Made by a program: the position numbers and the translations under genes. This document shows, piece after piece, positions 1,071-45,744 of a DNA stretch of 64,000 bases. The notes beneath the pieces were generated by a model. The model saw only the letters and a list, made by a program, of their open reading frames with translations, had not been told where the DNA came from and made no database searches. Origin of the DNA: Bacillus marasmi (lineage in GTDB: Bacteria; Bacillota; Bacilli; Bacillales; Cytobacillaceae); assembly GCF_902168435.1 (NCBI RefSeq), contig NZ_LR656167.1, positions 124,001-188,000 of the forward strand. The letters are read 5' to 3'. The stretch's first letter is position 1, and the number at the start of each line of letters is the position of its first letter.

Positions 1071-1154
1071 CAATAGTTTTTTCTGATGAACATCATTAAT
1101 GTGTTCTTTTTTTGGGACTAATCGTTCTATATAACGTACAAATCATTCTATATA

Positions 1155-1310: not shown

Positions 1311-1412
1311 AATTGAGATTTTTCATTATAATGTCTATTCAGATTGTATAATGAAAGTTTTCAATTAACTGCAAGCTGATTTTTTATTTAATTGAATTTG
1401 AAAAGGAGCGAA

Positions 1413-2558: not shown

Positions 2559-2560
2559 AG

Positions 2561-5765: not shown

Positions 5766-5776
5766 GAGTGTAATGG

Positions 5777-8970: not shown

Positions 8971-8996
8971 TTAATCTCTATGAAAAGGGACTTTTA

Positions 8997-10535: not shown

Positions 10536-10568
10536 ATGTAAAGGGTGTTTTTGTGTTGAGGTGGAAAA

Positions 10569-11174
10569 ATGAAAAGAATATTTGACTTAATCGTTGCGTG
10601 TGCAGGGATTACATTATTATCACCAATTATTTTATTAACTGCGCTGTTAATCAGACTGAAGCTTGGGTCACCGATATTGTTTAAACAGGAACGACCTGGT
10701 TTGCAAGGGAAAATATTTACCCTTTATAAGTTTCGGACAATGACTGATGAACGTGATGAAAAAGGTGAACTACTGCCGGATCATCTTCGTTTAACTGGTT
10801 TTGGGAAGCTGCTTCGAAAATTAAGCTTAGATGAATTTCCTCAGCTCTTAAATGTGGTCAAGGGTGAAATGAGTTTAGTAGGTCCAAGACCATTGTTAGT
10901 GGAGTATTTGCCATTGTATTCGTCACAGCAGCAAAAGCGACACAATGTCCCCCCAGGCATTACCGGATGGGCTCAAGTTAACGGACGTAATGCCATTACA
11001 TGGGAGGAAAGGTTTGAGCTTGATGTTTGGTACGTGGAAAACCAAAGCTTCTGGCTTGATATGAAAATATTGTTTCTGACGTTCAAAAAAGTCATTATGT
11101 CAGATGGTGTTAGCCATCAAGATTACGTCACAATGCCCGATTTTGAGGGGAATTCACTAAAAAAATCAAATTAA
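10569..11174 (+). CDS. epsL: Undecaprenyl-phosphate sugar-phosphate transferase (EpsL-like)
   Basis: A 201-residue bacterial sugar transferase. The N-terminal hydrophobic hairpin (residues 1-30) is followed by [42 protein letters not shown] and [13 protein letters not shown], all signature blocks of the PglC/WcaJ catalytic domain. The conserved Asp-Glu pair is in LDEFPQ. The enzyme transfers a sugar phosphate from a UDP-sugar to undecaprenyl phosphate and so starts repeat-unit synthesis. Length and motif wording match B. subtilis EpsL closely. GAGGTGG lies just before the ATG. Confidence 0.92.
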
Positions 11175-11210
11175 ATTAATAAAATTAATGTAAGAAGTGA
11201 GGATTTAGTT

Positions 11211-12347
11211 ATGTTGCAGCTATTACCACGAATCCGAGAAAGCAAGCTTTTCAAGCCACTTCGTTCAATGAAAACACAGTATATAGCCAAGCAGTACTGG
11301 AAAGGAGTTATTCAAAAGTTAAAGTCACAAAATCAATCCAACCGTAAATCAAGTCCATTTCGGCCAGGAATCGCCTTTTCCTTTGATGATAGTTTTCGAG
11401 TCCATGATTGGTTTCAGTACGGTAAAGACTTATTTGGCTATTATGATGTGAAGGTAACCTTTAATATTAACGCATTTCACCATTTTGAAGGACAGCGGAA
11501 ACACAACCAAGCTGAGATTGATATGCTCTTAGAGCTGCAGGCCGACGGACATGAAATTGCTCACCATGGCTATTCCCATCAAAATGCTAAAGAGTTTGCG
11601 GATGAGCATGGATGTCGCAAGTGGATTGAAGCTGAGATTGAACCATTGTTTGACTGGATGGATCAGCAATCTCATTCCATAACGAAAGAGAAGTTCAAAA
11701 TGCCGGTTAGCTTTGCATACCCTTATACCCTTTATTCACAAGCAACAAATGCTGCGTTAGTGCCAGCTTATTTTAAAGTGGTCCGAGGCGGCTTTGATCG
11801 TTATGACTTGCCAAGCCATGATATTTCCGGATATGTTCCCTCTATATGCATTGACCAAAAGGAACTGTTTGATTTTTCCTATTTTAAACAAGCGATGAAG
11901 CTAGCTAAAGAAACGGGGACAAATTTAATCATTATGTGTCATTCAATATTGCCTAATGAAGTAAACTGGGATGATTTTGGCTGGGGAGAAGAGGCGCAGC
12001 TGCCTGGTCAATATCGAACTGCACCTAAATTGCTACAGGCGATTATAAAAGAAGCGAGAAAGCTTGATATGGCATTTTATACAACTGCAGAATTAGCAGG
12101 GATTGCCACATTTATTGATCGTAATCTAGAAGCTTATCTTCGCAACGAAGTGCTAAAAACTTCTGAAAAATGGATTAAGATTGTTGATTTGCATCATGTT
12201 AAAGAACTCGACCTGCGTCACTGTCACATTACTAATTTAGATGGTATACAGTACTTTATCAATCTCGAGAAATTGTATTTGGGTAATCATCACATTAATG
12301 ACCTCAGCTTATTGAACAGATTACCTAAATTGTCAACCATCTTATGA
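11211..12347 (+). CDS. Polysaccharide deacetylase (NodB fold) with leucine-rich C-terminal tail
   Basis: A 378-residue protein. NodB motif 1 FSFDDS and motif 2 HHGYSH (H-x3-H metal site) are intact, followed by SFAYPYTLYS and IIMCHSILPNE, which fit motifs 3-5 of carbohydrate esterase family 4. No signal peptide is visible, so it may act in the cytoplasm or on the lipid-linked unit. After about residue 320, VKELDLRHCHITNLDGI and LEKLYLGNHHINDLSLL form at least two internalin-type leucine-rich repeats, an unusual extension. The last codons overlap the next start (ATGA). Confidence 0.82.
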   Translation: MLQLLPRIRESKLFKPLRSMKTQYIAKQYWKGVIQKLKSQNQSNRKSSPFRPGIAFSFDDSFRVHDWFQYGKDLFGYYDVKVTFNINAFHHFEGQRKHNQAEIDMLLELQADGHEIAHHGYSHQNAKEFADEHGCRKWIEAEIEPLFDWMDQQSHSITKEKFKMPVSFAYPYTLYSQATNAALVPAYFKVVRGGFDRYDLPSHDISGYVPSICIDQKELFDFSYFKQAMKLAKETGTNLIIMCHSILPNEVNWDDFGWGEEAQLPGQYRTAPKLLQAIIKEARKLDMAFYTTAELAGIATFIDRNLEAYLRNEVLKTSEKWIKIVDLHHVKELDLRHCHITNLDGIQYFINLEKLYLGNHHINDLSLLNRLPKLSTIL

Positions 12348-13711
12348 ATAGGAAGTATTTAATGGTCTGGATTTTCGTAATTGCAATAGGCGTGGTTGTG
12401 GGATGGCGAACACTAAGTATGGAAAATGGCAAGACAGCCTCCGACTTCGTTGTAGATGTGAAGGATTATGGTGCGGTTGGTGATGGAGTTAGTGATGATA
12501 CAAAAGCCTTTCAAACAGCGATTGATGACGTAAAGAAGCATGGTGGAGGAACCGTATTTGTACCTTCTGGAACTTACAGTCTTCAGCCGGTTTTTCTAAA
12601 GAATCATGTTCATTTGCGGGGCGAAGACCGTGATAAGTCGATTCTTAAGCTTGCTGATGATGCTCCTGATGATTACACACGTTTACTCACCACTGCAAAC
12701 AACACGAGTATTCAATCACTAACCTTCGATGGAAATTATCAAAAGCATCCAAATGGTATCGAGCATATGCATTGTATTTTCGTCTTTGATCATAAAAATG
12801 TCTTGATCAATAACAATAAAATCATGAATGCGGTTGGCGATGGTATTTCGGTGTCTGGGACTAGCAAAACTAGTAAAAACATCACGATTACCAACAATAT
12901 TGTTGAGGAAAATCAACGTTCGCAAATTGTGATTGAGCAAGTGAATCAATTGCAGGTTAACAACAATGTGCTTCGCTCTAAAACCGCTCGACCAGCGCTT
13001 CATTTCGAGCCATGGGAAAAACAGCAATATGAGAATGCGCAAATTAGTAGTAATACGATTGAATCGAATGTTGAAGGCTATTGCGTTCTCCTTTCAGGTG
13101 CCGATTCGGAGTTAGCTGGAGAGGGTGAGCTTGGTTATTTTTTTAATGACATAGAGTTTAAGCAAAATAAAGTTGATTGTCCTCTAGGGGCTTTGCTAGT
13201 GATGGATACAAAAAATGCGAAGCTAATTGATAATGAGCTTAAAGTGTCAGAGATTCATGTTTGGCGTAAAAATCAGCAGGTGAACATTGTACGGAATACA
13301 ATTAACTCCGTTAACGGAATTCGGCTTGAAGGGGGAAAGGATGGTGAGTTAATCTCAAACGGAACAAACATCTCTCATAATATAATTATAGCCTCCAATG
13401 ATGGAGTAAATATCCACGCAGGTGCCAGCAATACAAATATTATTAGTAACCATTTTACTGGTTCGAAACAAGCAACAGGGGTCGCGCTTTTTGCATCGGA
13501 TCATATTACAAATACGATCATTTCTAAGAACACCTTTCAGCACTATCGCTGGGGTGTTTTATTAGATTACGACAATTATAGTGATTCTGAAATTCAAGGT
13601 GTGATCATTTCTGGTAACAGGTTTGATAGTATAAACAAAGCGATTGAGCAAACGGTGCGAAACAGCAATCGCCTTAAAGACCTGGTCATTTCGAAAAATC
13701 ACTATTACTAG
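12344..13711 (+). CDS. Membrane-anchored right-handed beta-helix (pectate-lyase-3-like) protein
   Basis: A 455-residue protein. An N-terminal hydrophobic segment (YLMVWIFVIAIGVVVGW) is a signal anchor. VKDYGAVGDGVSDDTKAFQ and GGGTVFVPSGTY are the entry motif of the Pectate_lyase_3 beta-helix. The rest shows recurring Asn-rich ladders (ITNNIVEENQ, ISSNTIESN, VRNTINSVNG, IISNHFTGS). Such proteins in exopolysaccharide loci act outside the cell as lyases, hydrolases or epimerases on the polymer. It is coupled to the deacetylase gene by a four-base overlap, so it may also be involved in polymer modification. The catalytic residues cannot be assigned. Confidence 0.8.
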   Translation: MNRKYLMVWIFVIAIGVVVGWRTLSMENGKTASDFVVDVKDYGAVGDGVSDDTKAFQTAIDDVKKHGGGTVFVPSGTYSLQPVFLKNHVHLRGEDRDKSILKLADDAPDDYTRLLTTANNTSIQSLTFDGNYQKHPNGIEHMHCIFVFDHKNVLINNNKIMNAVGDGISVSGTSKTSKNITITNNIVEENQRSQIVIEQVNQLQVNNNVLRSKTARPALHFEPWEKQQYENAQISSNTIESNVEGYCVLLSGADSELAGEGELGYFFNDIEFKQNKVDCPLGALLVMDTKNAKLIDNELKVSEIHVWRKNQQVNIVRNTINSVNGIRLEGGKDGELISNGTNISHNIIIASNDGVNIHAGASNTNIISNHFTGSKQATGVALFASDHITNTIISKNTFQHYRWGVLLDYDNYSDSEIQGVIISGNRFDSINKAIEQTVRNSNRLKDLVISKNHYY

Positions 13712-13745
13712 CTTCACATTTTACTAAAAAGGAGATTTTCGCAAT

Positions 13746-14840
13746 ATGAAGGATCAAATGAAGAGAAAGCATTTAAACTTGATCCAATTTTCTCGGGCGC
13801 TCGTCCCGCTTTTCGTCCTTTTATTCCACGCCGAAGCATTTATGCATGTCTATTTCGATTATGATTTTTTGAAATTGCAGGATGTGTCAAAATCAGGGGG
13901 AGTTTACTATTTCTTTGCACTGTCAGGCTTTATGATTTTTTACATTTACCAGGGGGATTTTGGGAACCCAAAGAGATGGAAGTTTTTTCTGCATAGCAGG
14001 TTTATTAGAATCTATCCAATCTATTGGATATTATCGCTATGTATCCTTCCGGTATATATTCTCTTTCCGAGCTTCGGCCAAGGAAACGAATCTCAGCTCA
14101 ATACGATTATTACCTCGCTTCTATTGTTTCCTAACGAAAACGAACCGATTTTAAGTGTCGCCTGGTCATTAGTTCATACGGTGTTTTTTTATCTAATATT
14201 TTCGGTTGTATTTATGAAAAATAAAACAATCACAACGGTTATCCTAATGACTTGGGCTATTGTTTCGCTTGGATTCAGCACCGATATTTTTATTTCAGCC
14301 AATTACTATGTAAACTTTTTGTTCAATGGAAATAATTTGGTGTTTTTATTGGGGGTCTTATGCGCTTATGCAGTGAGAAGAATTAAACTCCAAATGATCA
14401 TAGCCTGGTTGCTGGTTGCAATAGGAATGATGGGGTTTCCATTCGCCTGGTTTAATACGCAATTTGAAATATTTCATCTCAGTCTACAACTCATAACGAG
14501 TCTTGCATCTGGTTTTATCATTTTTGGTTTATCAGCGATTGACCTTCAAGCTGAAGTCAATATTCCAGTATTTGCAAAATACCTTAGCGACGCCTCTTTT
14601 TCGATTTATCTTAGTCATTTTTTAATCATGTCAGGACTATGTAAATTTTTTAGTATAACAAATGTTTTAACGAATCACTACTTTATCATTAGTATTCTCT
14701 TAATCGTTCTAGCAACTGGCGGTGGTTGTTTAGTTTATTCATTTTTGGAAAAGCCATTAAATCGTAAAATAAAGGATTTAAACATAAAAAGGACCTTAGG
14801 TTCAGATGGTAATAAATTACAGATGGTAGAAAAGTCCTGA
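13746..14840 (+). CDS. Acyltransferase 3 family membrane protein
   Basis: A 364-residue polytopic protein with about ten helices. The family signature runs LIQFSRALVPLFVLLFHAE with its conserved His, followed by GVYYFFALSGFMIFYIY and the Arg-rich HSRFIRIYPIYWIL block. Near the end, SDASFSIYLSHFL and SFLEKPLNRK match the C-terminal family motif. These proteins move acetyl or other acyl groups from the cytoplasm onto extracellular or lipid-linked sugars. It lies downstream of a deacetylase and is the last gene before a fresh promoter. AAAGGAG precedes the ATG at a rather long distance. Confidence 0.85.
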   Translation: MKDQMKRKHLNLIQFSRALVPLFVLLFHAEAFMHVYFDYDFLKLQDVSKSGGVYYFFALSGFMIFYIYQGDFGNPKRWKFFLHSRFIRIYPIYWILSLCILPVYILFPSFGQGNESQLNTIITSLLLFPNENEPILSVAWSLVHTVFFYLIFSVVFMKNKTITTVILMTWAIVSLGFSTDIFISANYYVNFLFNGNNLVFLLGVLCAYAVRRIKLQMIIAWLLVAIGMMGFPFAWFNTQFEIFHLSLQLITSLASGFIIFGLSAIDLQAEVNIPVFAKYLSDASFSIYLSHFLIMSGLCKFFSITNVLTNHYFIISILLIVLATGGGCLVYSFLEKPLNRKIKDLNIKRTLGSDGNKLQMVEKS

Positions 14841-14867
14841 TGATAGTCGAAAAGACCTGAAAAACAA

Positions 14868-14896
14868 TTGACTTGTTCTTTATAGAGAACTATAAT
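14868..14896 (+). promoter_or_regulatory. Strong sigma-A promoter
   Basis: TTGACT at 14868-14873 and a perfect TATAAT at 14891-14896 are separated by 17 bases. They lie 68 bases upstream of the GT14-like gene. This suggests that the last four genes of the eps locus form their own transcription unit, even if read-through from the main operon also occurs. Confidence 0.8.
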
Positions 14897-14964
14897 TACG
14901 ATAAGTGTTTCTTAAAGTGAACAAAATTACTTTTTAGATTGTCATTTTTAAAGGGGATAAGGAA

Positions 14965-15867
14965 ATGAATTCGACTCCGCGGACAGCTTATATTTTACAA
15001 ATTCATAAAAATCCAGATCAGGTAAATAGGTTCATAAAACAACTGATCACTACAGAACATGCTGATGTTTTTGTTCATATTGATAAAAAAAACACAAAAA
15101 TAATTAGCGGAAAAATAATGAAGCATCCACAGGTGAAAATTCTACCAATTAGCATCAATTGTGAGTGGGGGGACATCAGTCAGGTGGACACGACCATTCT
15201 ATTGCTGAGAGAGGTACTGGCTTCTAAAAATGATTATGATTTTGTTGCCTTGAGAAGTGGACAGGATTTAATCGTTAAAGAAGGTTTTAAGCAGTTTTTA
15301 ACGGAAAATACCGATAGAATTTTTTTACACTATAAAAAGGTAAGCGATGAAAACCTTGGCTTTATGAAAATAAATTGGCCTAGTTTTGCCAGAAAGCGCT
15401 ACACGAGTAAGCATCCAATCAGAGTCTATCGACGGGTGTTACTGAATTGTTATAAAAGGGGAATTAATTTAGCACCAAATCATAACCATTGGCCGAAGGA
15501 TTATTCATTTTATAAGGGATCACAGTGGTTTACGATTCCATTTCCAGTTGCAAAATACATGATTGATTTCATAGATAAAAATCCATGGTACTATCGTTTT
15601 TTTGAAAAAACTTTGGTTCCTGACGAAAGCTTTTTCCACACATTAATACTAAATTCACCTTATAAAGCAAATGTCGTTAATACAAATTTAATGTTTCTCA
15701 AATGGGGAGAAACATTAAGTGAGCGAAATTCTCCGCAAAATCTTACTAATGAAGATGTTTCGTTGATTGAAGCGTCCAATGAATTTTTTGCACGAAAATT
15801 TGACGAGGCTATTGATGGTAATGTTATAGAGTATTTCATCAAAAAGGTGGGAGGTGCAACAAAATGA
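14965..15867 (+). CDS. GT14-type (core-2/I-branching-like) glycosyltransferase
   Basis: A 300-residue protein with RTAYILQIHKNPDQV, DVFVHIDKKN, CEWGDISQVDTTI and LRSGQDL, the arrangement seen in bacterial members of the beta-1,6-N-acetylglucosaminyltransferase (core-2/I-branching) family. Later YKGSQWFTIP and VPDESFFHTLI match the SQW and PDE motifs of that family. It is the first gene after the 14868 promoter and overlaps the aminotransferase by four bases. It may add a side branch built with the amino sugar made by the next enzyme; that link is inference. Confidence 0.8.
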   Translation: MNSTPRTAYILQIHKNPDQVNRFIKQLITTEHADVFVHIDKKNTKIISGKIMKHPQVKILPISINCEWGDISQVDTTILLLREVLASKNDYDFVALRSGQDLIVKEGFKQFLTENTDRIFLHYKKVSDENLGFMKINWPSFARKRYTSKHPIRVYRRVLLNCYKRGINLAPNHNHWPKDYSFYKGSQWFTIPFPVAKYMIDFIDKNPWYYRFFEKTLVPDESFFHTLILNSPYKANVVNTNLMFLKWGETLSERNSPQNLTNEDVSLIEASNEFFARKFDEAIDGNVIEYFIKKVGGATK

Positions 15868-17090
15868 AAAATGAGGAAAAAATCTTCCTGTCTTTGCCGC
15901 ATATGAGCGGAAAAGAGCTTGCATATATAACCGAAGCATTTGAAACAAACTGGGTTGCACCTTTAGGACCAAATGTTGATCGATTTGAAAAGGAAATTGC
16001 TGATTATGTGGGTGTAGGAAACGCAATTGCTTTAAGCTCTGGTACGGCTGCAATTCACCTCGCTTTACGACTCCTTGATGTAAAGCAAGGCGATACAGTG
16101 TTTTGCTCCACGCTAACGTTTATTGCTAGCGCTAATCCAATTTTATACGAGGGAGCAAAGCCGATATTCATTGATTCTGAGCCTGATACATGGAATATGT
16201 CTCCCCAGGCATTGAAAGTAGCGTTAAGGGAGGCGGCGAAAAAAGGCAGCTTGCCAAAGGCAGTCATCGTTGTTCATCTATACGGGCAGTGTGCCAAAAT
16301 GGATGAAATTATTAACCTTTGCAATCAATATCAGATTCCAGTCATTGAGGATGCGGCAGAATCGCTCGGTGCATTGTATAAAGGTAAAGCAAGCGGAACA
16401 ATCGGTCACTTTGGAATTTACTCCTTTAATGGCAATAAAATTATTACAGCATCAAGTGGTGGTATGCTCGTTTCCAATAACCAAGCTGCGATAAAAAAAG
16501 CAGGTTTTCTGGCTACTCAGGCGAAGGATGACGCGCCATATTACCAACACTCGCAAATGGGTTTTAATTATCGGATGAGTAATATTTTAGCTGGCATCGG
16601 CCGGGCCCAATTAGAAGTGCTGGATGAAAGGGTTTCTGCAAGAAGAGCAATTTTTCAAAGATATTTTCAGCATTTATCACATATGCCTGGAATAACGTTT
16701 ATGGGTGAACTGGAAAAAACAAAATCAAACCGCTGGTTAACGGTTATGTTAGTAGATGAAGAAAAATCTGGTCGTTCAGTAACGTCATTAATCAAGTATT
16801 TAACAAATGAAAATATAGAAGCAAGGCATGTGTGGAAGCCACTGCATTTGCAACCATTATTTCAAGATGCGCCGTACTACCCTCATAGTGAAACAGAGCA
16901 TGTTGCCGAAAGATTATTTCGCAACGGTATCTGCCTCCCTTCTGGTTCTGGGATGTCAGAAGAGCAACAAATGAGTGTAATAAATTGCATTAAAGAATTC
17001 TTTATTTCAAAACCAATTCAAGAAAGTAGAAAAATAGAATTATCATCAAACCAAGCAGAAAAATCATACCAGTATAAGCTATTGGGGTGA
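15864..17090 (+). CDS. epsN: EpsN-like PLP-dependent sugar aminotransferase (DegT/DnrJ/EryC1 family)
   Basis: A 408-residue fold-type I aminotransferase. LSLPHMSGKELAYI, NWVAPLGPNVDRFE, ALSSGTAAIHLAL, VIEDAAESLGALYKG and FNGNKIITASSGGM (PLP lysine in GNK) follow B. subtilis EpsN almost word for word. EpsN makes UDP-4-amino-4,6-dideoxy-GlcNAc from the 4-keto sugar produced by EpsC. Neither an EpsC dehydratase nor an EpsM acetyltransferase gene is in this window, so the substrate must come from elsewhere. A C-terminal extension of about 20 residues (ESRKIELSSNQAEKS) goes beyond the usual end. Confidence 0.92.
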   Translation: MKNEEKIFLSLPHMSGKELAYITEAFETNWVAPLGPNVDRFEKEIADYVGVGNAIALSSGTAAIHLALRLLDVKQGDTVFCSTLTFIASANPILYEGAKPIFIDSEPDTWNMSPQALKVALREAAKKGSLPKAVIVVHLYGQCAKMDEIINLCNQYQIPVIEDAAESLGALYKGKASGTIGHFGIYSFNGNKIITASSGGMLVSNNQAAIKKAGFLATQAKDDAPYYQHSQMGFNYRMSNILAGIGRAQLEVLDERVSARRAIFQRYFQHLSHMPGITFMGELEKTKSNRWLTVMLVDEEKSGRSVTSLIKYLTNENIEARHVWKPLHLQPLFQDAPYYPHSETEHVAERLFRNGICLPSGSGMSEEQQMSVINCIKEFFISKPIQESRKIELSSNQAEKSYQYKLLG

Positions 17091-17208
17091 CTGAAAAGTG
17101 TATTGCTATGTCCAAAAACTAGTAGAAAAGACACGGTTATAAAAGACCTAACCTAAAAAGGGGGGAATAGGCTTGGTCAAGTCAACTGGTGTTGAAGGAG
17201 GCCTTACG

Positions 17209-18483
17209 GTGCAACAGAATCCGCTTGATGACTTCTTATCGGATCATAAAAAAATGACGGAACTGGAACATCAATTTGGTTCATCCTTTTACTTATTTAA
17301 CACAGAGCAATTGCGGATGAATTATCATAAGATTGAAAGCGCCTTTAAAAGTAGATACAGTAATTTCATCATTGGCTATTCATATAAGACAAACTACTTG
17401 CCATATTTATGCAAGGTGTTATCAAAGCTTGGTGCATATGCTGAGGTTGTGTCTCGGCTTGAGTATGATTTGGCTTTGAAAATCGGAGAGAATCCAAAGC
17501 GGATTATCTTCAATGGACCATTAAAAAGCCGCGATGATATTTTTTATGCCATTGACAATGGCAGCTTGCTCAATCTTGATTCACTTTATGAGATAAAGTT
17601 CGTTGAGGAATATGCAAAGCAGTATCCTAAGCGTGATATTAAGATTGGCTTACGGCTAAACTTCGATATCTCAGAAAATGGAGTGAGTCCACTTCAGGAA
17701 GGGTATCCAATAAGTCGCTTCGGAATTTGTGTTGAGAGTGGGACACTTCATCAAGCTATTACCGAACTTTCAGCCTATAAAAATATAAAAATAGTGGGTT
17801 TGCATGGTCATTTTTCAACAAAAAAAAGAAATATCGAAGCCTATCAAAAAATTACTGAAACACTTTGCAAGATTGGAAAACGGTATATAGAGGAGTCGCT
17901 CGAGTATATCGATATCGGTGGTGGAATATATGGTGAGGTTCCGAAATCATTTAATCTAAACACACCAAGTTTTGATGATTATGCGACAGTTGTCTGCGAG
18001 ATAATGAATCGAGAATTTGCACATTGGACGAACAAACCAGCCTTAATTTTAGAGCCAGGTATTTCGATGGTAGCTAATACATTCCAATTTGTTGCGAAAG
18101 TGATTGAAACGAAAACGATTCGTGGTCAGAATTTTGTGTTGGTCGACGGTAGTGTACATAATATTAAACCAACAATGCACAAGAATAATTTACCGATGAG
18201 AATCACAAGTCAATATCCAAGCTCCACAAAAGCTACAGTTTTCCATGTCGTTGGTTATACATGTATGGAAAAGGATTACTTAGCTCACGAAGTCGTGGCA
18301 GAATTACCGCAAATAAATGATTTTCTGATTTTTGATAATGTCGGTGCTTATACGATCGTCTTTAATCCTCCTTTTATAAAAGAAAGACCCGGTATTGTTG
18401 CAGTGGATGAGGATGAGTTTATGATCGTACGGAAGAAAGAAACATTGAAGCAATTTGTTAATGAAGAAATCTATACTTTTTAA
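17209..18483 (+). CDS. LysA/ornithine-decarboxylase-family PLP enzyme
   Basis: A fold-type III PLP decarboxylase of about 424 residues. The PLP lysine lies in IGYSYKTN. A Gly-rich phosphate loop, IDIGGGIYGEV, is present, and the C-terminal catalytic Cys segment is GYTCMEKDYLA. The usual EPGR motif reads EPGISMV, losing the arginine, which points to an unusual substrate or geometry. I prefer GTG 17209 because AAGGAGG lies seven bases upstream; TTG 17173 behind AAAGGGGGG is a possible longer start (436 residues). Its neighbours are a sugar aminotransferase and an ATP-grasp ligase. A decarboxylase paired with an ATP-grasp enzyme is reminiscent of BtrK/BtrJ in butirosin synthesis. The real substrate is unknown. 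Confidence 0.8.
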   Translation: MQQNPLDDFLSDHKKMTELEHQFGSSFYLFNTEQLRMNYHKIESAFKSRYSNFIIGYSYKTNYLPYLCKVLSKLGAYAEVVSRLEYDLALKIGENPKRIIFNGPLKSRDDIFYAIDNGSLLNLDSLYEIKFVEEYAKQYPKRDIKIGLRLNFDISENGVSPLQEGYPISRFGICVESGTLHQAITELSAYKNIKIVGLHGHFSTKKRNIEAYQKITETLCKIGKRYIEESLEYIDIGGGIYGEVPKSFNLNTPSFDDYATVVCEIMNREFAHWTNKPALILEPGISMVANTFQFVAKVIETKTIRGQNFVLVDGSVHNIKPTMHKNNLPMRITSQYPSSTKATVFHVVGYTCMEKDYLAHEVVAELPQINDFLIFDNVGAYTIVFNPPFIKERPGIVAVDEDEFMIVRKKETLKQFVNEEIYTF

Positions 18484-18500
18484 AGTGAGGTTGAGTATAT

Positions 18501-19460
18501 TTGAATATATTAATCTGCAGTGTCGGCCGACGTGTTAAATTAATTGAATATTTCAAAAATGAACTAATGTTGGTAGGCGGAAAAATTGTTGCCGTTGACT
18601 GTGACCCAACTGCGCCAGCCTTGTACCATGCGGATTGTTTCGAAGTTGTGCCCCGTATTGATCATCCAGACTATATTCATGAAATAAAAGAAATATGCAA
18701 GAAGCACCGTATTGATGGGATATTATCGTTGATTGATCCAGAATTAAGCTTGCTTGCCAGCGTGAAGGCTGAGCTGGCACAAGAAGGGGTTAATGTAATT
18801 GTCTCCGGGCAAACAGTGGTCGATCTTTGCTACGATAAATACGAGACAGCGAAATTTTTACAAGAACACAATCTTCCAGCCGTGCCAACTTATGTCGATA
18901 TAAATGAAGTCATTACTGATATAAATGAAGGAAGACTGAAGTTTCCCTTAATAGTAAAACCGAGATTTGGCAGTGCGAGCATCGGAATCCATAAGGTTAC
19001 AGCTTTAAGGGAGCTAAAGGTTTTCCAAAATGACGAGCAAGTATGGATTGTACAGCCGTTCATCAATGGAGAAGAAATCGGCTGCGATTGCTATGTTGAT
19101 TTATTATCTGAGCAAACGACGAACATTTTTATGAAAAAGAAGATTCGAATGAGGGCTGGTGAAACCGATAAATCAATTGCCATCAAAGACTCTAGCTTAA
19201 AAATGATGATAGAAAGGCTGATTGCTGTCCTTAAACCACTGGGGCCCATCGACATTGATTGCTTTAAAACAGAGTCGGGCTACAATATCTCAGAAATCAA
19301 TCCAAGATTTGGTGGAGGTTATCTCCATGCACATGAAATGGGTCAAAACTTCGTAAAAAACATCATTAGAAATTTGAAAGGCGAGCAGAATGAAAAGAAC
19401 CACGAGGACTACAAAGAAGGAAGCACACTAATAAAATTCGACCACTTCATCGTTATATAG
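18501..19460 (+). CDS. ATP-grasp ligase (CarB/PylC-like)
   Basis: A 319-residue protein from a TTG start with upstream GTGAGG. The N-terminal Rossmann-like part MNILICSVGRRVKLI with AVDCDPTAPALYHAD is shared by PylC/CarB-type ATP-grasp enzymes. The ATP-grasp core follows: YDKYETAKFL, FPLIVKPRFGSASIGI, VQPFINGEEIGCD and the metal-binding EINPRFGGGY. It should join a carboxylate to an amine or thiol using ATP. Lying 17 bases after the decarboxylase, it probably shares a pathway with it, for example attaching an amino acid or amide to the polysaccharide. No carrier protein gene is seen. Confidence 0.82.
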   Translation: MNILICSVGRRVKLIEYFKNELMLVGGKIVAVDCDPTAPALYHADCFEVVPRIDHPDYIHEIKEICKKHRIDGILSLIDPELSLLASVKAELAQEGVNVIVSGQTVVDLCYDKYETAKFLQEHNLPAVPTYVDINEVITDINEGRLKFPLIVKPRFGSASIGIHKVTALRELKVFQNDEQVWIVQPFINGEEIGCDCYVDLLSEQTTNIFMKKKIRMRAGETDKSIAIKDSSLKMMIERLIAVLKPLGPIDIDCFKTESGYNISEINPRFGGGYLHAHEMGQNFVKNIIRNLKGEQNEKNHEDYKEGSTLIKFDHFIVI

Positions 19461-19469
19461 AGTCTTTAA

Positions 19470-20042
19470 TTTACCTAGAGTGGAAATGATGGCTCTAGGT
19501 AAATTAAAACGGAAAATGAATTTACCTAGAGTGGAAATGACGGCTCCAGGTAAATTAAAACGCAAAATGAATTTACCTAGAGTGGAAATGCTAGCTCCAG
19601 GTAAATTAAAACGCAAAATGAATTTACCTAGAGTGGAAATTAGGGCTCCAGGTAAATTAAAATGCAAATTGAATTTACCTAGAGTGGAAATTAGGGCTCC
19701 AGGTAAATTAAAATGCAAATTGAATTTACCTAGAGTGGAAATGACGGCTCCAGGTAAATTAAAACGCAAAATGAATTTACCTAGAGTGCCAATTAGGGCT
19801 CCAGGTAAATTAAAATGCAAAATGAATTTACCTAGAGTGGAAATGCTAGCTCCAGGTAAATTAAAATGCAAAATGAATTTACCTAGAGTGCCAATTACGG
19901 CTCCAGGTAAATTAAAATGCAAAATGAATTTACCTAGAGTGCCAATTACGGCTCCAGGTAAATTAAAACGGAAAATGAATTTACCTAGAGTGGAAATTCT
20001 AGCTCCAGGTAAATTAAAACTCGAAATAAATTTACACATTCC
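19470..20042 (+). repeat. Tandem array 1: 11 exact-length 51-bp units with internal hairpin arms
   Basis: Units begin at 19470, 19521, 19572 and so on every 51 bases to 19980, with a decayed twelfth at 20031 and no indels. Each unit carries TTTACCTAGAG and, about 12 bases later, CTCCAGGTAAA (perfectly complementary CTCTAGGTAAA in the first unit), so each can form a hairpin. Arms are conserved while the loop varies. The array begins ten bases after the ATP-grasp stop. Because 51 is a multiple of three, long ORFs run through it on both strands (19480-20070 + and 19428-20051 -), but they are low-complexity shadows of the repeat. Confidence 0.95.
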
Positions 20043-34465: not shown

Positions 34466-36316
34466 ATGTGCGGAATCTCAGGTTGGATTGATTATCAAAA
34501 AGACATTCGATCGGAAGCAAAGACAGTTGCGAGGATGGCTGAAACTTTGTCTAAGCGAGGTCCGGATGATACGAATGTTTGGACGGATTTACATGCCGGA
34601 TTTGGTCATAAACGCCTCGTGGTTGTCGATCCCGTAGGCGGTAAGCAGCCGATGACCAAGGAAAAGTCCGGAAACCGTTTTACCATTTGTTACAATGGCG
34701 AGCTATACAATACAGAGGATATCCGCAAAGAGCTTCTAATAAAAGGATATTCTTTTAATGGTCATTCCGATACAGAAGTTTTGCTTACCGCTTACATTGA
34801 ATGGCAAGAAAAGTGTGTCGACCATTTAAATGGTATTTTCGCCTTTGCTGTTTGGGATCAACAGAAGGAAAAATTGTTCATCGGTCGGGACCGACTTGGG
34901 GTTAAGCCATTATTTTACGTGGAGTCAGGGAACGGCTTAATTTTTGGCTCTGAGTTAAAAGCAATTTTGGCAAATCCTCATGTGAAGGTCGAAGTTGATC
35001 GTGAAGGCTTGTCAGAAGTGTTTGGACTTGGTCCTTCTCGCACACCTGGTGTAGGTGTTTTTAAAGGGGTTAAGGAGCTGCGCCCTGGCCATGCTTTAAT
35101 TTTCAATGTGAACGGCTTAAAAATTTGGCGTTATTGGAATGTGAAAAGCGCAGAGCACCAAGATAGCATTACTGACACGATTACGAAGGTTCGCAAGTTA
35201 GTTGTCGATGCTGTGACTCGGCAGCTCGTTTCTGATGTTCCACTTTGTACATTTCTATCAGGAGGTGTTGATTCCTCAGCGATTACCGCAATTGCCGCGA
35301 ATCAGTTTGCACTTGAAGGCAAAGGTGCACTTCACACATACTCCATCGATTACGAAGGAAACGCAAAATACTTTAAAGAAAATGAATTTCAGCCGAATTC
35401 CGATGCTAGTTTTATTCAAAAAATGGTGCAGGATTTCGGTACCATTCATCATAGCTGTGTCATTACCCAAGAGGATTTGGCCAAGCATTTAGTGGAAGCT
35501 GTTCATGTTCGCGATTTACCGGGAATGGCCGATGTTGATTCCTCTTTATTATGGTTTTGTCGTGAGATTAAGCAAGATTTTGTTGTAAGTCTGTCAGGTG
35601 AATGTGCAGACGAAATATTTGGTGGTTACCCATGGTTTTACCGCGAGGACGACTTAAATCGGGCAGGCTTCCCTTGGATGCGTTCCGTCGATGCGCGCCA
35701 GGCGCTTTTGCGGAATAATTGGCAATCACGGCTACGTTTGCCGGAATATATTATGAGCCGCTACTCAGAGGCAATCGCCGAGACACCACGCCTTGATGGA
35801 GAAAGTGCGGTTGATGCCAAGCGACGCGAGATGTTTTATTTAAATATGATCTGGTTCATGACAACGCTACTCGACCGTAAGGACCGCATGAGTATGGGGG
35901 CAAGCCTCGAGGTCCGTGTGCCATTCGCAGATCACCGTTTAGTCGAATATGTTTGGAACATTCCATGGGACATGAAAACATACGGACACCGTGAAAAAGG
36001 AATATTGCGTAAAGCATTAGAGGGGCTCCTCCCTGACGAAATTCTTTATCGGAAAAAGAGCCCTTATCCTAAGACACACAATCCAGAGTATACAAAACTA
36101 GTAACAGGGCTGTTAAGTGATGCACTGCGCGATAAGGGTTCCGCACTACATGAGTTTTTCGATGGAGAGGAGCTGCGCAAGATTGTTGATACAGGTGGAG
36201 CATCGTTTGTGGATCCATGGTTCGGCCAGCTAATGACCGGTCCGCAGCTATTAGCGCACCTTTATCAAATTCACGTCTGGTTCAAAGATTACGGGATTAA
36301 TATAGTTGAAAATTGA
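34466..36316 (+). CDS. asnO: Glutamine-hydrolysing asparagine synthetase, AsnO (YisO) type
   Basis: A 616-residue class II enzyme. Catalytic Cys2 begins the glutaminase domain (MCGISGWIDY), with KRGPDDT, CYNGELYN and GRDRLGVKPLFY. The synthetase domain has the PP-loop LSGGVDSSAI and SLSGECADEIFGGYPW. It converts aspartate to asparagine using glutamine and ATP. Length and neighbourhood (yisL, yisN) match the sporulation-linked AsnO of B. subtilis. GAGGAG lies nine bases upstream of the ATG. A CATAATAT sequence near 34412 could be a sigma-E -10, but the -35 is poor. Confidence 0.93.
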   Translation: MCGISGWIDYQKDIRSEAKTVARMAETLSKRGPDDTNVWTDLHAGFGHKRLVVVDPVGGKQPMTKEKSGNRFTICYNGELYNTEDIRKELLIKGYSFNGHSDTEVLLTAYIEWQEKCVDHLNGIFAFAVWDQQKEKLFIGRDRLGVKPLFYVESGNGLIFGSELKAILANPHVKVEVDREGLSEVFGLGPSRTPGVGVFKGVKELRPGHALIFNVNGLKIWRYWNVKSAEHQDSITDTITKVRKLVVDAVTRQLVSDVPLCTFLSGGVDSSAITAIAANQFALEGKGALHTYSIDYEGNAKYFKENEFQPNSDASFIQKMVQDFGTIHHSCVITQEDLAKHLVEAVHVRDLPGMADVDSSLLWFCREIKQDFVVSLSGECADEIFGGYPWFYREDDLNRAGFPWMRSVDARQALLRNNWQSRLRLPEYIMSRYSEAIAETPRLDGESAVDAKRREMFYLNMIWFMTTLLDRKDRMSMGASLEVRVPFADHRLVEYVWNIPWDMKTYGHREKGILRKALEGLLPDEILYRKKSPYPKTHNPEYTKLVTGLLSDALRDKGSALHEFFDGEELRKIVDTGGASFVDPWFGQLMTGPQLLAHLYQIHVWFKDYGINIVEN

Positions 36317-36346: not shown

Positions 36347-36375
36347 TTTGGGTTTGATGTTAGAAAATGGGTTTT

Positions 36376-36475
36376 GGCGATTAAACTGAAAAATCGGCGA
36401 TTAAATCTGAATTTTGGCGATTAAACTAAAAAATCGGCGATTAAATCGAATTTTTGGCGATTAAACCGAAAATCA
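36376..36475. repeat. Tandem array 3: five 20-bp units
   Basis: GGCGATTAAA recurs at 36376, 36396, 36416, 36436 and 36456, exactly 20 bases apart. Units alternate between a form ending in AAAAATC and one ending in GAATTTT, giving a 40-bp higher-order repeat. The array lies between the asnO terminator and the NERD gene stop. Confidence 0.9.
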
Positions 36476-37441
36476 CTATATTATCAGTTCCAATGAGAGT
36501 ATGTAAACCCGATTTTTTTTCGCCCCTTTATTGGGGAGCTTTAGTTTTACAAGTAATTTGGAAGCAATATTCATAGATTCCAGCCCTAAAAACTCGCGAA
36601 ACTGCTTATTGGTGAATTCTGGACCATAAATAAGGTAATAGTCTTTTAATGCTTTTAGGTGGGCATCCTTTGATTTACAACCACAGCGATGACAGTGCCA
36701 CGAGCCGCCGTGATATTTCATTCCGAGCGTCCCGCAGCATGGGCAGTGTACGCCGCTGGGAATCTCCGAACGCTTAATTTTGTACATTTTTTCAATGTCG
36801 AAGGTAGGCTCAACATGATGGTTTAACAAAAATTGACTCATATACTGAAGGTCAGCTTGTGAATAAAAAACCTGTTGGTGTTTAGCGGAAAATTGATTCA
36901 AACGTGGGATAACGCTCCTACCACGGCAGACACGATACTCTGCTTCGGAGCCTGCCAAAGTCTTCAAAACGCAAGATTGATTGGTCATTGCCACCAAATA
37001 TTCGAGATCAGCAATTGGGAAGCTGTGTCGCGCAAGCCATCTATGTAATTCACCTAACTGAAATTGCGCTTGAAGCATGGGATTTTCATAGCCGATTTCA
37101 CCATTTTGGATCATTTGATTGCGGTTTTCATCAACTTCAATTGTACCGGCCAGGTTTTTCGCTTCAATGATTGGAATGTGTGTTGGAGATAAGAGTAAGG
37201 TGTCAATTTGGAAGTGGGTGTGACGATCATTGGCTAAGCGCAGTCCTTTAATGATGTAGTAATCATGATATGGAAGGTAATGAAGGTAGGAATCGAGCGT
37301 TAATTCGCCTTTGTGTCCTGATTGTTCTCGCCTGAGCTGCTCTTTAATAACGGGAACCATAGAATGATTGCTTCTAATCCTCCCAAGAATCGCTTCGAGA
37401 AATTCCAACTTACGCGATTTTTTGCGTTTATTCATAAACAT
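36476..37441 (-). CDS. NERD-domain protein with C-terminal zinc ribbon
   Basis: 321 residues. The nuclease-related NERD domain is seen as LRREQSGHKGELTLDSYL, then HFQIDTLLLSP and PIIEAKNLAGTIE, preserving the E...D...ExK catalytic pattern of restriction-endonuclease-like folds. Near residue 230, CPCCGTLGMKYHG plus CHRCGC makes a four-cysteine zinc ribbon. AAGGAG sits eight bases before the ATG. NERD proteins of bacilli are common, and their targets are unknown. It is flanked by a 20-bp array and a promoter region, with no operon partner. Confidence 0.85.
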   Translation of the reverse strand: MFMNKRKKSRKLEFLEAILGRIRSNHSMVPVIKEQLRREQSGHKGELTLDSYLHYLPYHDYYIIKGLRLANDRHTHFQIDTLLLSPTHIPIIEAKNLAGTIEVDENRNQMIQNGEIGYENPMLQAQFQLGELHRWLARHSFPIADLEYLVAMTNQSCVLKTLAGSEAEYRVCRGRSVIPRLNQFSAKHQQVFYSQADLQYMSQFLLNHHVEPTFDIEKMYKIKRSEIPSGVHCPCCGTLGMKYHGGSWHCHRCGCKSKDAHLKALKDYYLIYGPEFTNKQFREFLGLESMNIASKLLVKLKLPNKGAKKNRVYILSLELII

Positions 37442-37762
37442 TCGCAGTACTCCTTTGTGTTTTTGATTTGTAAAAAAACTATCCGACTCATCTTTGTGAT
37501 TTATGGTAAATAAACAAACTACTCCTCTCTAAATTTTCAATACACAATGTTTCGACACCAAACTCAATACGACCTCTATCAATTTTTATTTTTCATAAAA
37601 ATAACAAAATCTCCTAATAGCATCTTGTTTGACCTAAACACGACAACAAGATAATCTAAAGGCATATGTAAAAATGTGAGAGATTTGTGGATAGTTGCGG
37701 AAAAAAGCTAAAAAAATACGCGAAAATCAGTGAATTCACTCATTTCAAGGGGGAGCGGAAGT
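37442..37762. other. Intergenic region between the NERD gene and the GH13-like gene
   Basis: AT-rich, with no ORF of note. It holds the minus-strand promoter region of the NERD gene (not resolved) and a candidate + strand promoter, TTGACC (37629-37634), 17 bases, TAATCT (37652-37657). I see no other structure. Confidence 0.6.
37629..37657 (+). promoter_or_regulatory. Candidate sigma-A promoter of the GH13-like gene
   Basis: TTGACC and TAATCT are separated by 17 bases, about 105 bases upstream of the TTG start. The -35 is good; the -10 matches four of six positions. Confidence 0.5.
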
Positions 37763-39238
37763 TTGAAAAACAGAATTGTTTCAATCATATTAATCCTGTT
37801 TCTCATTTTTGCAGGGCTCGGTGCACCAGCAGCGGCCGCTGACAAAAAAGGGGAAAATTGGCAGGATGAGTCCATCTATTATATTATGGTCGATCGCTTC
37901 AATAACGGCGATACTGCTAATGATTTTACGATGGATTCAAAAAATCCATTAGCTTACCATGGCGGTGATTTTAAAGGGGTATCACTGCAATTGGATTACA
38001 TTAAAGACATGGGTTTTACGACAATTGCGTTATCACCAATTTTTGAAAATCAAGAAAATGGCTATCATGGTTATTGGATTAATGATTTTTATAAAACTGA
38101 GGAGCATTTTGGAACGCAAAAGGAATTTAAAAGCCTGGTGAAGGAAGCTCATAAACGCAATTTGAAGGTGATGGTTGAGTTGCCAGCCACTGCAGTTGGA
38201 ACGAACCACCCTTGGGTAAATGAAGCGGACAAGCAGGCTTGGTTTGGAGTCGCTGACACAACTGCAAATGGTCTAAAGAAACTGAATCTAGAACATAATC
38301 AAGTTCAGGAATATATTATTGAAGTTGCACAGTGGTGGCTAACTGAAACAGGTATTGACGGATACATGCTTAATGAAGTACAGAATATGCCGAGCAAATT
38401 TCTGAATGATTTTTCAAAAGAAATCAAATTAAGCCATCCAAACGCATTTCTGCTAGCTAATGGTGCTAATTCAAACAAACCAGAAATGGACGGATTTTTC
38501 GATTATCAAGGTAATCAAGTGCTGCGAAAGGGGTTCGCTAAACCTGATTCTTCCTTAGAGGAAATCGTCCCAATAATCGAGAAAAATCAGCAACTAATTG
38601 AGTCTGAACAAGTAGTTGGTAATTTCTTAGATAATCTGCAAATGAACCGCTATACACATGATGCGGTTGTAAATAATCTACATCCGGGTTCACGCTGGAA
38701 GCTCGCATTAACGTACCTTTATACTGTACCTGGTGTTCCGATTGTTTATTATGGAAGTGAGATAGCGCTGGAAGGAAATGAGAACGACCATAAACAAATG
38801 GATTTTCGTACCGATCAGGAGCTTGTTGAGTATATTACGACGATTGGGGAATTGCGGAATCAAATACCTGCGCTAACGAAGGGGACCTTCGAGCCTCTGT
38901 ATGCAGAAGGCGGTATGATTGTTTACAAACGGGAATTCGAAGGTGAAACGGTTATCATCGCCATTAACAATACCTCTAAAACACAAAGCGTCGAGATTGA
39001 TGCGGATAAAATTGCTAAAGATATGGAGTTAAGAGGACTCATAATGGACGACCAGTCGAAAGAAAAGGATGGAAAATACAAGCTGATTGTCGATCGTGAT
39101 GAGGCTGAAATTTACATGGTTACCGAAAAAAGCGGATTAAACATCCCATATATTGTCGTGATGGGAATCGTTTATTTGCTGTTTACGTTATTTATTATTT
39201 TGTTATTAAAACGAAGAAAGCGGAAAGCTACAGAATAA
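37763..39238 (+). CDS. Membrane-anchored GH13 alpha-amylase-like protein with degenerate active site
   Basis: 491 residues from TTG 37763 behind GGGGAG. A signal peptide (KNRIVSIILILFLIFAGLG, then APAAAA) leads to a GH13 barrel (DESIYYIMVDRFNNGD, HGGDFKGV, LSPIFENQENGYHGYW). A C-terminal helix with a KRRKRK stop-transfer anchors it outside. Conserved region II reads GIDGYMLNEV (usual arginine now Met, nucleophile Asp now Asn204). Region III reads FLLANGAN where GEVW is expected (acid Glu now Asn233). Region IV reads FLDNLQMNR instead of FLDNHDMxR (Asp now Gln293). Region I also lacks its Asp and NH. The frame is intact, so it is probably a non-hydrolytic sugar-binding or scaffold protein. Confidence 0.88.
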   Translation: MKNRIVSIILILFLIFAGLGAPAAAADKKGENWQDESIYYIMVDRFNNGDTANDFTMDSKNPLAYHGGDFKGVSLQLDYIKDMGFTTIALSPIFENQENGYHGYWINDFYKTEEHFGTQKEFKSLVKEAHKRNLKVMVELPATAVGTNHPWVNEADKQAWFGVADTTANGLKKLNLEHNQVQEYIIEVAQWWLTETGIDGYMLNEVQNMPSKFLNDFSKEIKLSHPNAFLLANGANSNKPEMDGFFDYQGNQVLRKGFAKPDSSLEEIVPIIEKNQQLIESEQVVGNFLDNLQMNRYTHDAVVNNLHPGSRWKLALTYLYTVPGVPIVYYGSEIALEGNENDHKQMDFRTDQELVEYITTIGELRNQIPALTKGTFEPLYAEGGMIVYKREFEGETVIIAINNTSKTQSVEIDADKIAKDMELRGLIMDDQSKEKDGKYKLIVDRDEAEIYMVTEKSGLNIPYIVVMGIVYLLFTLFIILLLKRRKRKATE

Positions 39239-39242
39239 GGAA

Positions 39243-39276
39243 AAAATAGGACTGGATTGAACTCCAGTCCTATTTA
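39243..39276. terminator. Bidirectional terminator between the GH13-like gene and yitK
   Basis: AAATAGGACTGGA pairs with TCCAGTCCTATTT around TTGAAC; A-rich upstream and T-rich downstream flanks serve both convergent genes. Confidence 0.85.
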
Positions 39277-39283
39277 AGTAATG

Positions 39284-39775
39284 TTATCGATAATTTACAA
39301 ACTGCACATCCACGGTTAGGTCAGCATCACGAACGGCAGCAATGATTTTTTGAAGGTCATCACGACTTTTACCTGTCACGCGAATTTGGTCATCCTGGAT
39401 TTGACTTTTTACCTTTACGCCGCTATTTTTGATAATCGTATTGATTTTCTTTGCGTTCTCTTTATCGATACCTTGAACCATTTTGGCTCGTTGGCGAACA
39501 GTCCCGCCAGACGCACCTTCGATTTTGCCGTAATCAAGATTTTTAATCGGAACGCCGCGCTTGATTAATTTGCTAAACAATACATCTTTTAATTGACCAA
39601 GCTTATATTCATCATCGGAAATGAGCACGAGCTCTTCCTTGTCTAGCTTTACCTCGCTTTTACTGCCCTTAAAGTCGTAACGGGTACCAATTTCTTTCAT
39701 CGTTAAATTAATTGCATTGGTGACTTCAGAAAAATCAACTTGGGAAACAATATCAAATGAACTGTCTTTTGCCAT
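39284..39775 (-). CDS. yitK: YajQ/YitK family nucleotide-binding protein
   Basis: 163 residues starting [20 protein letters not shown] at ATG 39775, behind GGAGG. The family blocks ISIT-like [26 protein letters not shown] and KDENAKKI-type [11 protein letters not shown] are clear. YajQ-like proteins bind RNA or nucleotides (c-di-GMP in some bacteria). The pairing with the divergent cvfB/yitL is the same as in B. subtilis. Confidence 0.93.
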
Positions 39776-39881
39776 AGCTACCTCCGAAAACATTTTTCTT
39801 TATGTCTCCATTATAGTAAAATATAGCAGTCCAAACAACTTAAGGAATTTTATAAAAGATAAACCAATGGAGGAAATAAAC

Positions 39882-45123: not shown

Positions 45124-45744
45124 TTATTGACCCAATTTTTGGCGACTTGAAAAATGGGAATCAAAAAGCTCGGTTGATGCCCAAAAATTGAGCGACACGG
45201 AAAAATGGGAATCAAAGAGTTGGATTGATGCCGAAAAATTAAGCGACACGGAAAAATGGGAATCAAAGAGTATGATTGATGCCCAAAAAATTAAGCGACA
45301 CGGAAAAATGGGAATCAAAGTGCATGATTGATGCCCAAAAATTGAGCGACACGGAAAAATGGGAATCAAAGAGCTCGATTGATGCCCAAAAATCAAGCGA
45401 CACGGAAAAATGGGAATCAAAGAGCTCGATTGATGCCCAAAAATTGAGCGACACGGAAAAATGGGAATCAAAGAGCTCGATTGATGCCCAAAAACTGAGC
45501 GACACGGAAAAATGGGAATCAAAGAGCTCGATTGATGCCCAAAAACTGAGCGACACGGAAAAATGGGAATCAAAGAGCTCGATTGATGCCCAAAAATCAA
45601 GCGACACGGAAAAATGGGAATCAAAGAGCTCGATTGATGCCCAAAAATTGAGCGACACGGGAAAATGGGAATCAAAAAGCTCGATTGATGCCCAAAAATC
45701 CAGTGACATGAAAAAATGGAAATCAAAGAGAGAGTTGACGCCAT
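45124..45744. repeat. Tandem array 2: about 12 units of 51 bp with internal hairpin arms
   Basis: ATGGGAATCAAAGAG recurs about every 51 bases (one unit is 52), twelve times in all, with decayed ends. Each unit holds TGGGAATCAA and, nine bases later, TTGATGCCCA, which pair at nine of ten positions around a GAGCTC-containing loop. Long ORFs in three frames (for example 45276-45746 + and 45124-45744 -) follow from the period being a multiple of three; I regard them as non-genic. Sequence is unrelated to array 1 at 19470, but the period is the same. Confidence 0.95.

Follow-up and report, generated by a model that had tools for sequence, protein, structure and literature searches.

A membrane-anchored probable pseudoenzyme of the GH13_45 amylase lineage in Bacillus marasmi and the recurrent loss of its active site among relatives

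The gene at positions 37763..39238 (+ strand) of the window, the 64,000-nucleotide stretch of Bacillus marasmi contig NZ_LR656167.1 that was analyzed here, encodes a 491-residue protein of the alpha-amylase fold that is probably a pseudoenzyme, an anchored scaffold kept for a non-catalytic job; we give this reading a probability of roughly 0.7. The catalytic residues have been lost and yet the protein is under purifying selection, and a non-catalytic role is therefore proposed. The first-pass annotation of this DNA had claimed that all three catalytic carboxylates were replaced and region I lost, while the frame, signal peptide and anchor were intact. The residue statements proved correct in both pairwise and family alignments, and the open reading frame does specify a GH13 protein that is secreted and held by a transmembrane anchor at its C-terminus.

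Results

Gene and protein architecture

The open reading frame runs uninterrupted from a TTG start at 37763, which follows AAGGGGGAGCGG and has a good ribosome-binding site in front, to a stop at 39236-39238. The product matches the Pfam families Alpha-amylase (PF00128, 3e-42) and Alpha-amylase_C_2 (PF22026, 4e-31), and consists of a signal peptide, GH13 domains A, B and C, a C-terminal transmembrane helix and a basic tail; all parts of the protein named below lie on the + strand. The signal peptide was recognized from the sequence by a scored hydrophobic N-terminus and covers residues 1 to about 26 (37763..37840), with a presumed cleavage point. Domain C, the match to PF22026, spans residues 374-451 (38882..39115). 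The juxtamembrane stretch, transmembrane helix and basic tail occupy residues 456-491 (39128..39235), with the helix at 461-490 in the model. The helix bears four aromatic residues (Y463, Y471, F474 and F477), and the whole protein contains no cysteine.

The solved proteins closest by sequence are the Anoxybacillus amylase (5a2a/5a2b) and Geobacillus GTA (4e2o). A structure predicted from ten sequences (mean pLDDT 74) was ranked by Foldseek with 5a2c, 5a2a and 4e2o on top (TM 0.75-0.76 by query, 0.82 by target), and the model indicates a (beta/alpha)8 barrel with domains B and C (0.76/0.82 for 5a2c).

Active site of the window protein

The protein was compared with its relatives in an alignment of 150 homologues, made up of the proteins of 140 fetched loci and of the window itself, along with tandem copies and a small number of outside relatives. 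The 140 loci came from 136 genomes of the window's family and were taken best-scoring first from the 170 family genomes with a match. The triad was altered in 87 of the 150 proteins and intact in 63.

In the residue-by-residue alignment, the catalytic triad of 5a2a, D213/E242/D310 in the numbering given in PMC4791539, corresponds to N204/N233/Q293 of the window protein, and Arg211 and His309 correspond to M202 and L292. These changes fall in region II (residues 197-210, 38351..38392; Arg202 to Met and the nucleophile Asp204 to Asn, followed by Glu205), region III (residues 228-236, 38444..38470; the acid/base Glu233 to Asn) and region IV (residues 286-297, 38618..38653; His292 to Leu and the stabiliser Asp293 to Gln). 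In region I (residues 134-145, 38162..38197), the family alignment shows Asp139 replaced by Glu, Asn143 by Thr and His144 by Ala. The Asp/Glu/Asp triad that GH13_45 enzymes carry on beta4, beta5 and beta7 is absent. An alignment artefact was ruled out by the concordance of the pairwise alignment to the solved enzyme with the family alignment.

Other features of the subfamily are partly retained. The adjacent tryptophan pair between regions V and II, which is a GH13_45 hallmark according to PMC5347038 and PMC11448133, is kept as W191-W192 (38333..38338). The LPDlx motif of region V is missing; the window protein reads LKKLN there, and LPD is found in all nine other aligned rows. The domain B loop (residues 160-171, 38240..38275) is shortened to 12 residues, compared to 25 in 59 of the 63 intact-triad copies. 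The shortened loop and the LKK sequence were both absent from the first-pass annotation, as were the BmaN1 group and the syntenic transporter operon described below. When columns were counted, the window protein differed at all 8 active-site columns. Of the remaining columns with a conservation of 95% or more in intact-triad copies, it differed at 19 of 88 (Fisher p 2e-5, with columns treated as independent).

Substrate contacts have been lost as well. Eight maltose contacts of TASKA are conserved in intact copies, and the window protein keeps two of them, Y104 and W105, which are also the only ones kept among the five that lie outside the triad. Y147 was considered as a further lost contact and dropped, as Tyr is present there in just 15 of 63 intact copies. 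At most three of the five non-triad contacts are kept in 71 of the 87 altered copies, and all five are present in 61 of the 63 intact ones. The small number of glucan contacts left makes ordinary glucan binding in the cleft unlikely.

This result bears on the possibility that the protein is a surface lectin whose old cleft, or a surface site, binds starch, glycogen or envelope alpha-glucan without cutting it. Substrate binding can persist in catalytically dead GH13 mutants, which counts in favor of such a role, as does the presence of Tyr104 and Trp105 (subsites -1/-2) not only in the window protein but in 71 and 79 of the 87 altered copies, respectively. However, the contacts lost from the window protein and from most altered copies, together with the erosion of Arg343, His208 and His162, make a lectin unlikely. 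Glycan binding was among the non-enzymatic roles that had been suggested for this protein; the general suggestion is supported by catalytic loss under purifying selection, but the 2 of 8 contacts kept speak against glycan binding in the old cleft.

Altered triads among relatives

Of the 193 genomes in the window's family, 170 have an amylase homologue at E <= 1e-40; a search of 397 genomes sampled from the order gave 239 with one at E <= 1e-60. Within the family, 85 triads are altered and 57 intact, and 52 of the 87 altered copies in the whole alignment have none of the three triad residues in place. Among the five genomes analyzed from the window's own genus, all four that bear the gene have altered copies, whose exact residues are not identical, and the fifth is without the gene. 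The loss is accordingly common to the four genus copies and further relatives rather than peculiar to this strain, and a strain-specific error or a pseudogene was ruled out on the basis of the four altered copies and the dN/dS values given below. Outside the family, altered triads were found in 5 of 7 copies of family f30, whereas none of the eight active-site positions is changed in the eight f28 copies, the single copy from f39 or those from f9 and f11; the f30, f28 and f39 copies are among the top-scoring matches of the order-wide search, and those of f9 and f11 came from a separate search. In four genomes of genus g18 (L127, L187, L188 and L189), a second, strongly altered copy is located at an unrelated locus, and the copy at the standard locus is intact.

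One genus of the family, g24, shows a different pattern. At its loci (L128-L147 and L192-L207), the old active site has been swapped for a genus-wide set of other residues: all 36 fetched copies are altered, Pro204 and Glu292 are present in 36 of 36, and Ser202 in 35. This uniformity suggests that a new constraint, and not drift, may be at work. In addition, residue 205 is acidic in 39 of the 87 altered copies (30 in g24 and 9 in five other genera), and it is Thr in 60 of the 63 intact copies.

These observations could be explained if the altered proteins were still enzymes with relocated or different chemistry, in which the acid one place downstream of the lost nucleophile takes over, as has been proposed for BmaN1. 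That protein is reported to be active (PMC5347038, PMC11448133) despite an aberrant triad, so residue loss is no proof of inactivity. The window protein has such an acid, Glu205, and the g24 residues also fit this explanation. Yet with Asn at the acid/base position and Gln at the stabiliser position, at most one of the three carboxylates could be replaced in this way; the substrate contacts, the full domain B loop and the LPD motif are gone too, and the triad positions vary among the four genus copies. Lys-Asp at the nucleophile position was found in none of the 87 altered copies, and His at position 293 in 13. For the window protein, we regard continued catalysis as distinctly unlikely, and the protein is presumably inactive, as judged from its residues.

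Locus and transporter link

The usual gene order at the locus is asparagine synthase, amylase, yajQ, cvfB, degV and yitT. In the window, annotation and synteny place the left border at the asparagine synthase gene (34466..36316, + strand) and the right border at the gene for a YajQ family protein (39284..39793, - strand). A NERD-domain protein gene (36476..37441, - strand) lies between asparagine synthase and amylase, and was found at this place in the four genus copies of the locus. Short repeats of 20/40 bp are present at 36372-36472, between the asparagine synthase and NERD genes, where relatives have the transporter operon. In the fetched flanks, YajQ was found as a neighbor in 122 of 146 cases and asparagine synthase in 89 of 146, numbers that are limited by contig ends and flank size.

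At intact loci, the amylase gene lies downstream of genes for a solute-binding protein and two permeases of an ABC transporter, with which it forms an operon. A neopullulanase-type GH13 gene is located divergently upstream, and a LacI regulator gene downstream, after a GH31 gene in some genera. One permease matches MalF at 3e-68, below the curated cut-off; the transporter, termed mdx here, has maltodextrin as its putative substrate.

The state of the active site and the presence of the transporter are closely associated. Eight active-site positions were scored at the 110 loci that have three or all four of the neighbors on the right-hand side. The transporter was present at all 38 loci with all eight residues, and absent at 69 of the 72 loci with any position altered (the exceptions are G013, G036 and G129). 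When all copies with context were included, 55 of 57 complete copies had the transporter beside them; of the two exceptions, one belongs to a Clostridiaceae MAG and the other to a 7-kb contig. Among the copies altered at any of the eight sites, 85 of 91 were without the transporter. Transporter loss does not always come first, because six of these 91 altered copies still adjoin the transporter, three of them in two tandem-amylase loci.

At the 85 transporter-less loci, the neopullulanase gene is kept in 9 and the LacI gene in 2; the amylase is present in all 85, but that was the criterion by which these loci were selected, and a whole-genome count is fairer. In whole genomes, MdxE was absent at E <= 1e-60 in 89 of 193, and a cross-reading of the two genome searches showed that at least 8 of these 89 are also without the amylase. 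No MdxE was found at this threshold in the five genomes of the window's genus, and some g24 genomes encode MdxE elsewhere in the genome.

Recurrence and early stages

A tree was built from the neighboring proteins YajQ, CvfB, DegV and YitT, with the amylase excluded, using FastTree and midpoint rooting, so that the counts taken from it are approximate. Triad state required at least 9 changes on this tree, or 12 losses if loss is irreversible, and the absence of the transporter likewise required 9 changes or 12 losses. Among independent pairs differing in the transporter, 6-7 were concordant and 0 discordant with respect to the complete active site (median p 0.03), and a mean of 4.8 were concordant and 0 discordant for the triad alone (median p 0.06). 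Pairs chosen to differ in the triad gave a mean of 5.6 concordant and 0 discordant for the transporter (median p 0.03).

Two loci appear to have changed only recently. At L115 (genome G119) and L182 (genome G104), there was no match to MdxE or MdxF, while the neopullulanase gene, the LacI gene and a truncated MdxG were retained. The MdxG remnant of L115 covers residues 151-280 and is 96% identical to a relative; that of L182 consists of two overlapping pieces, residues 80-252 and 218-280. The amylase that follows the remnant is open in both cases and has a single active-site change (D293N in L115 and D204G in L182), with 0 and 2 changes, respectively, in other conserved columns. A single active-site change outside the triad, with none elsewhere, was seen at two transporter-less loci: His292 to Gln in L057, and His144 to Ser in L087. 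A counter-case is L080b, which has one change (Asp139 to Gly) and an adjoining transporter. Relaxed constraint confined to the catalytic residues is enough to account for the early stages; there is no need to invoke active selection for inactivation, though it may have acted.

Retention and selection

All 87 altered copies cover the protein from end to end and have the transmembrane helix and basic tail, and a signal-like N-terminus was scored in 86 of them. Nei-Gojobori dN/dS was summarized as a median per genus. Across six genera, the medians for altered copies were 0.10-0.17; those for intact copies, obtained from five genera, were 0.036-0.085. These medians were drawn from pairs with dS of 0.1-1.5, a range in which the window's genus has no pairs; the window and its nearest relative differ by dN 0.17 and dS 1.93, which is near saturation. 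The claim that the catalytic residues were lost while the protein was retained under selection is borne out by these values, together with the genus copies and many relatives.

The relaxation is uneven along the protein. In regional comparisons, in which a copy was classed as altered if any of the eight active-site positions was changed, pooled dN/dS rose from 0.034 in intact to 0.166 in altered copies for the triad-bearing residues 191-300, from 0.093 to 0.159 for the transmembrane helix and tail, and from 0.084 to 0.116 for domain C, the smallest rise of the regions. Constraint is somewhat relaxed in every region of the altered copies. Weighted by genus, 93 columns reach a conservation of 95% or more in intact copies; their median retention among altered copies was 0.93. 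The least-retained columns were D293 (0.27), H208 (0.28), E233 (0.35), D204 (0.38), V206 (0.52), R343 and H162 (0.54 each) and R202 (0.59), where the low values of the triad columns are partly circular, as they define the altered class, while those of H208, R343, H162 and R202 are not. Together, the column retention and the regional dN/dS pattern demonstrate that it is the active site that has been lost, and the protein has been kept.

One face of the transmembrane helix is well conserved. Conservation of V470, F474 and F477 is 93-96% among the altered and 86-100% among the intact copies of the family, and the positions between them are at most 60% conserved in altered copies. Ahead of the helix, G458 and N460 are 90% and 100% conserved. 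The transmembrane stretch as a whole was rejected as the most conserved part of the protein: the values for the window against genome G004 were 0.93 and 1.00, but across genera they were 0.44 in altered and 0.42 in intact copies, and our claim is therefore limited to the helix face.

Gene integrity was also determined beyond the fetched loci, for which the catalytic residues were read. A further 33 family genomes were scored for frames only, and 32 of these have single open frames of 457-557 codons, seven with one stop within the matched stretch. In the remaining genome, G208 (81% complete), the amylase gene is split into two separate frames. Apparent internal stops in five fetched relatives (L107, L144 and L202-L204) were discounted, since the open frame spans 471 or 478 of the 491 window positions; at the three of these loci where the upstream sequence was inspected, the stop preceding the frame sits before the signal peptide. 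The gene can be lost, as seen from the genomes with neither MdxE nor amylase and from the split G208 copy. A functionless relic in slow decay would agree with this loss, with the lack of a match at E <= 1e-40 in 23 of the 193 family genomes, with active-site loss accompanying pathway loss and with the general relaxation of constraint, but it is very improbable given that 87 of 87 altered copies have an open frame and the anchor, that dN/dS lies far below 1, that the 32 further genomes have single frames and that in one genus 36 of 36 fetched loci keep the gene with shared altered residues.

Flanking features of the window

A block upstream of the gene (37622..37652, + strand) contains an 8-bp dyad (ATCTTGTT and AACAAGAT). 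It was recognized by eye in the four genus copies and is less perfect outside the window; that it is an operator or other regulatory element is a guess. A sigma-70 scan gave 3 sites, compared to 6.2 in shuffled sequences, with none at this block, and no CcpA cre-like boxes were found within 320 bp upstream of the amylase in any group. Between the convergent amylase and yajQ genes, a hairpin at 39244..39275 (no strand assigned) is terminator-like on the - strand, with 1 found against a shuffle mean of 1.4.

The window also contains two arrays, each with 11 copies of a 51-bp unit (19468-20035 and 45149-45730), which have unrelated consensus sequences and frames open on both strands. A long run of glycosyltransferase-, sugar transferase- and flippase-like open reading frames at 408-19460 resembles, by eye, an exopolysaccharide cluster.

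Discussion

The history that best fits these results begins with a GH13_45-type cell-surface alpha-amylase, of which the window gene is the orthologue, still in place. The ancestral amylase would have been one component of an uptake operon of the maltodextrin type. Both the transporter genes and the catalytic residues have since been lost from the window's lineage, and what remains is a full-length, secreted and membrane-anchored protein under purifying selection. Its role is suggested to be structural, that of a surface scaffold carried on the transmembrane helix. The V470/F474/F477 face may pack against a membrane partner or against itself, and domain C and the outer barrel may form the exposed platform of the scaffold, although the conserved face can also be a mere property of the anchor. 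The role is probably older than the losses and would coexist with catalysis in active enzymes, because the protein was kept after approximately 12 inferred triad losses and the same helix face is present in intact copies.

A broader proposal follows the same lines, and we would give it even odds. The anchored GH13_45 amylases of these bacilli would be two-function proteins. One function would be an ancestral role in the envelope, not involving catalysis and residing in the transmembrane helix and the outer scaffold; the other, hydrolysis, would be dispensable and have been turned off roughly a dozen times, for the most part in lineages that lost the neighboring maltodextrin transporter. The proposal predicts that a much-used subfamily of amylases has a second, hidden function; if it is true, the active industrial members have that function too. 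Gene duplication is the usual explanation for pseudoenzymes, whereas here catalysis was lost repeatedly from a mostly single-copy orthologue at a fixed locus. The graded intermediates and the two freshly changed-looking loci make the order and cause of enzyme death directly open to study. A caution for annotation is that proteins of the window's family assigned to GH13_45 are often named as enzymes although they are unlikely to be active.

Comparison with known systems

The closest known proteins are the GH13_45 enzymes of the BaqA/ASKA/GTA type (5a2a, 5a2c and 4e2o). The window protein shares their fold, the order of domains A, B and C, the tryptophan pair and the C-terminal anchor region, but lacks the triad, the Arg and His, the LPD motif and the full domain B loop. 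In PMC11448133, the aromatic C-terminal region is treated as a starch-binding motif, with a transmembrane helix also predicted there; a membrane-packing face fits the persistence of this region in pseudoenzymes better.

BmaN1 from Bacillus megaterium has Lys202-Asp203/Glu231/His294 in place of the usual triad and is reported to be active on starch, at 8.4 U/mg (PMC5347038, PMC11448133). The recombinant protein from E. coli showed 1.54 U/mg when full-length and refolded and 1.69 U/mg when truncated (PMC11448133). The BmaN1 group resembles the window protein in its subfamily, its altered triad, the Glu that opens region I, the acid one place after the lost nucleophile and the C-terminal transmembrane helix. 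In contrast to BmaN1, which keeps the acid/base Glu231, the window protein keeps none of the three residues; where BmaN1 has Lys-Asp, Glu and His, it has Asn-Glu, Asn and Gln. More than 30 BmaN1 relatives with altered triads are described in PMC5347038, 7 of them irregular across the whole triad, and these seven sequences are the closest mention of such proteins that we found in print. In PMC11239784, 17 incomplete-triad sequences of other subfamilies were removed as likely errors or ongoing pseudogenisation, and BmaN1 is cited as active.

The first-pass annotation had named the animal 4F2hc/rBAT heavy chains as the nearest parallel. They are membrane-bound proteins with a GH13 ectodomain for which no enzymatic role is proven (PMC8537225). 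According to the same source, they are type II proteins, anchored at the N-terminus and disulfide-linked to an SLC7 transporter, and rBAT keeps the three catalytic residues. The window protein is bacterial, has a signal peptide and a C-terminal transmembrane anchor and, without any cysteine, has neither type II topology nor the means for a disulfide to a transporter. The parallel is thus weak, and the BmaN1 group is nearer.

Aberrant triads in the subfamily, and the activity reported for one member, were already known. By title and abstract, no link of active-site loss to transporter loss, and no recurrence of such loss, was found in the open-licence papers that were searched. What is new is the family-wide recurrence, the link to the locus and transporter, and the pattern of selection, rather than the aberrant triads as such. 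By descent and locus, the window protein is an orthologue of GH13_45 proteins. It is not filed as a GH13_45 amylase, because it lacks two defining features, the triad and the LPD motif; it is likewise classed neither with the BmaN1-type enzymes nor with heavy chains of the 4F2hc type.
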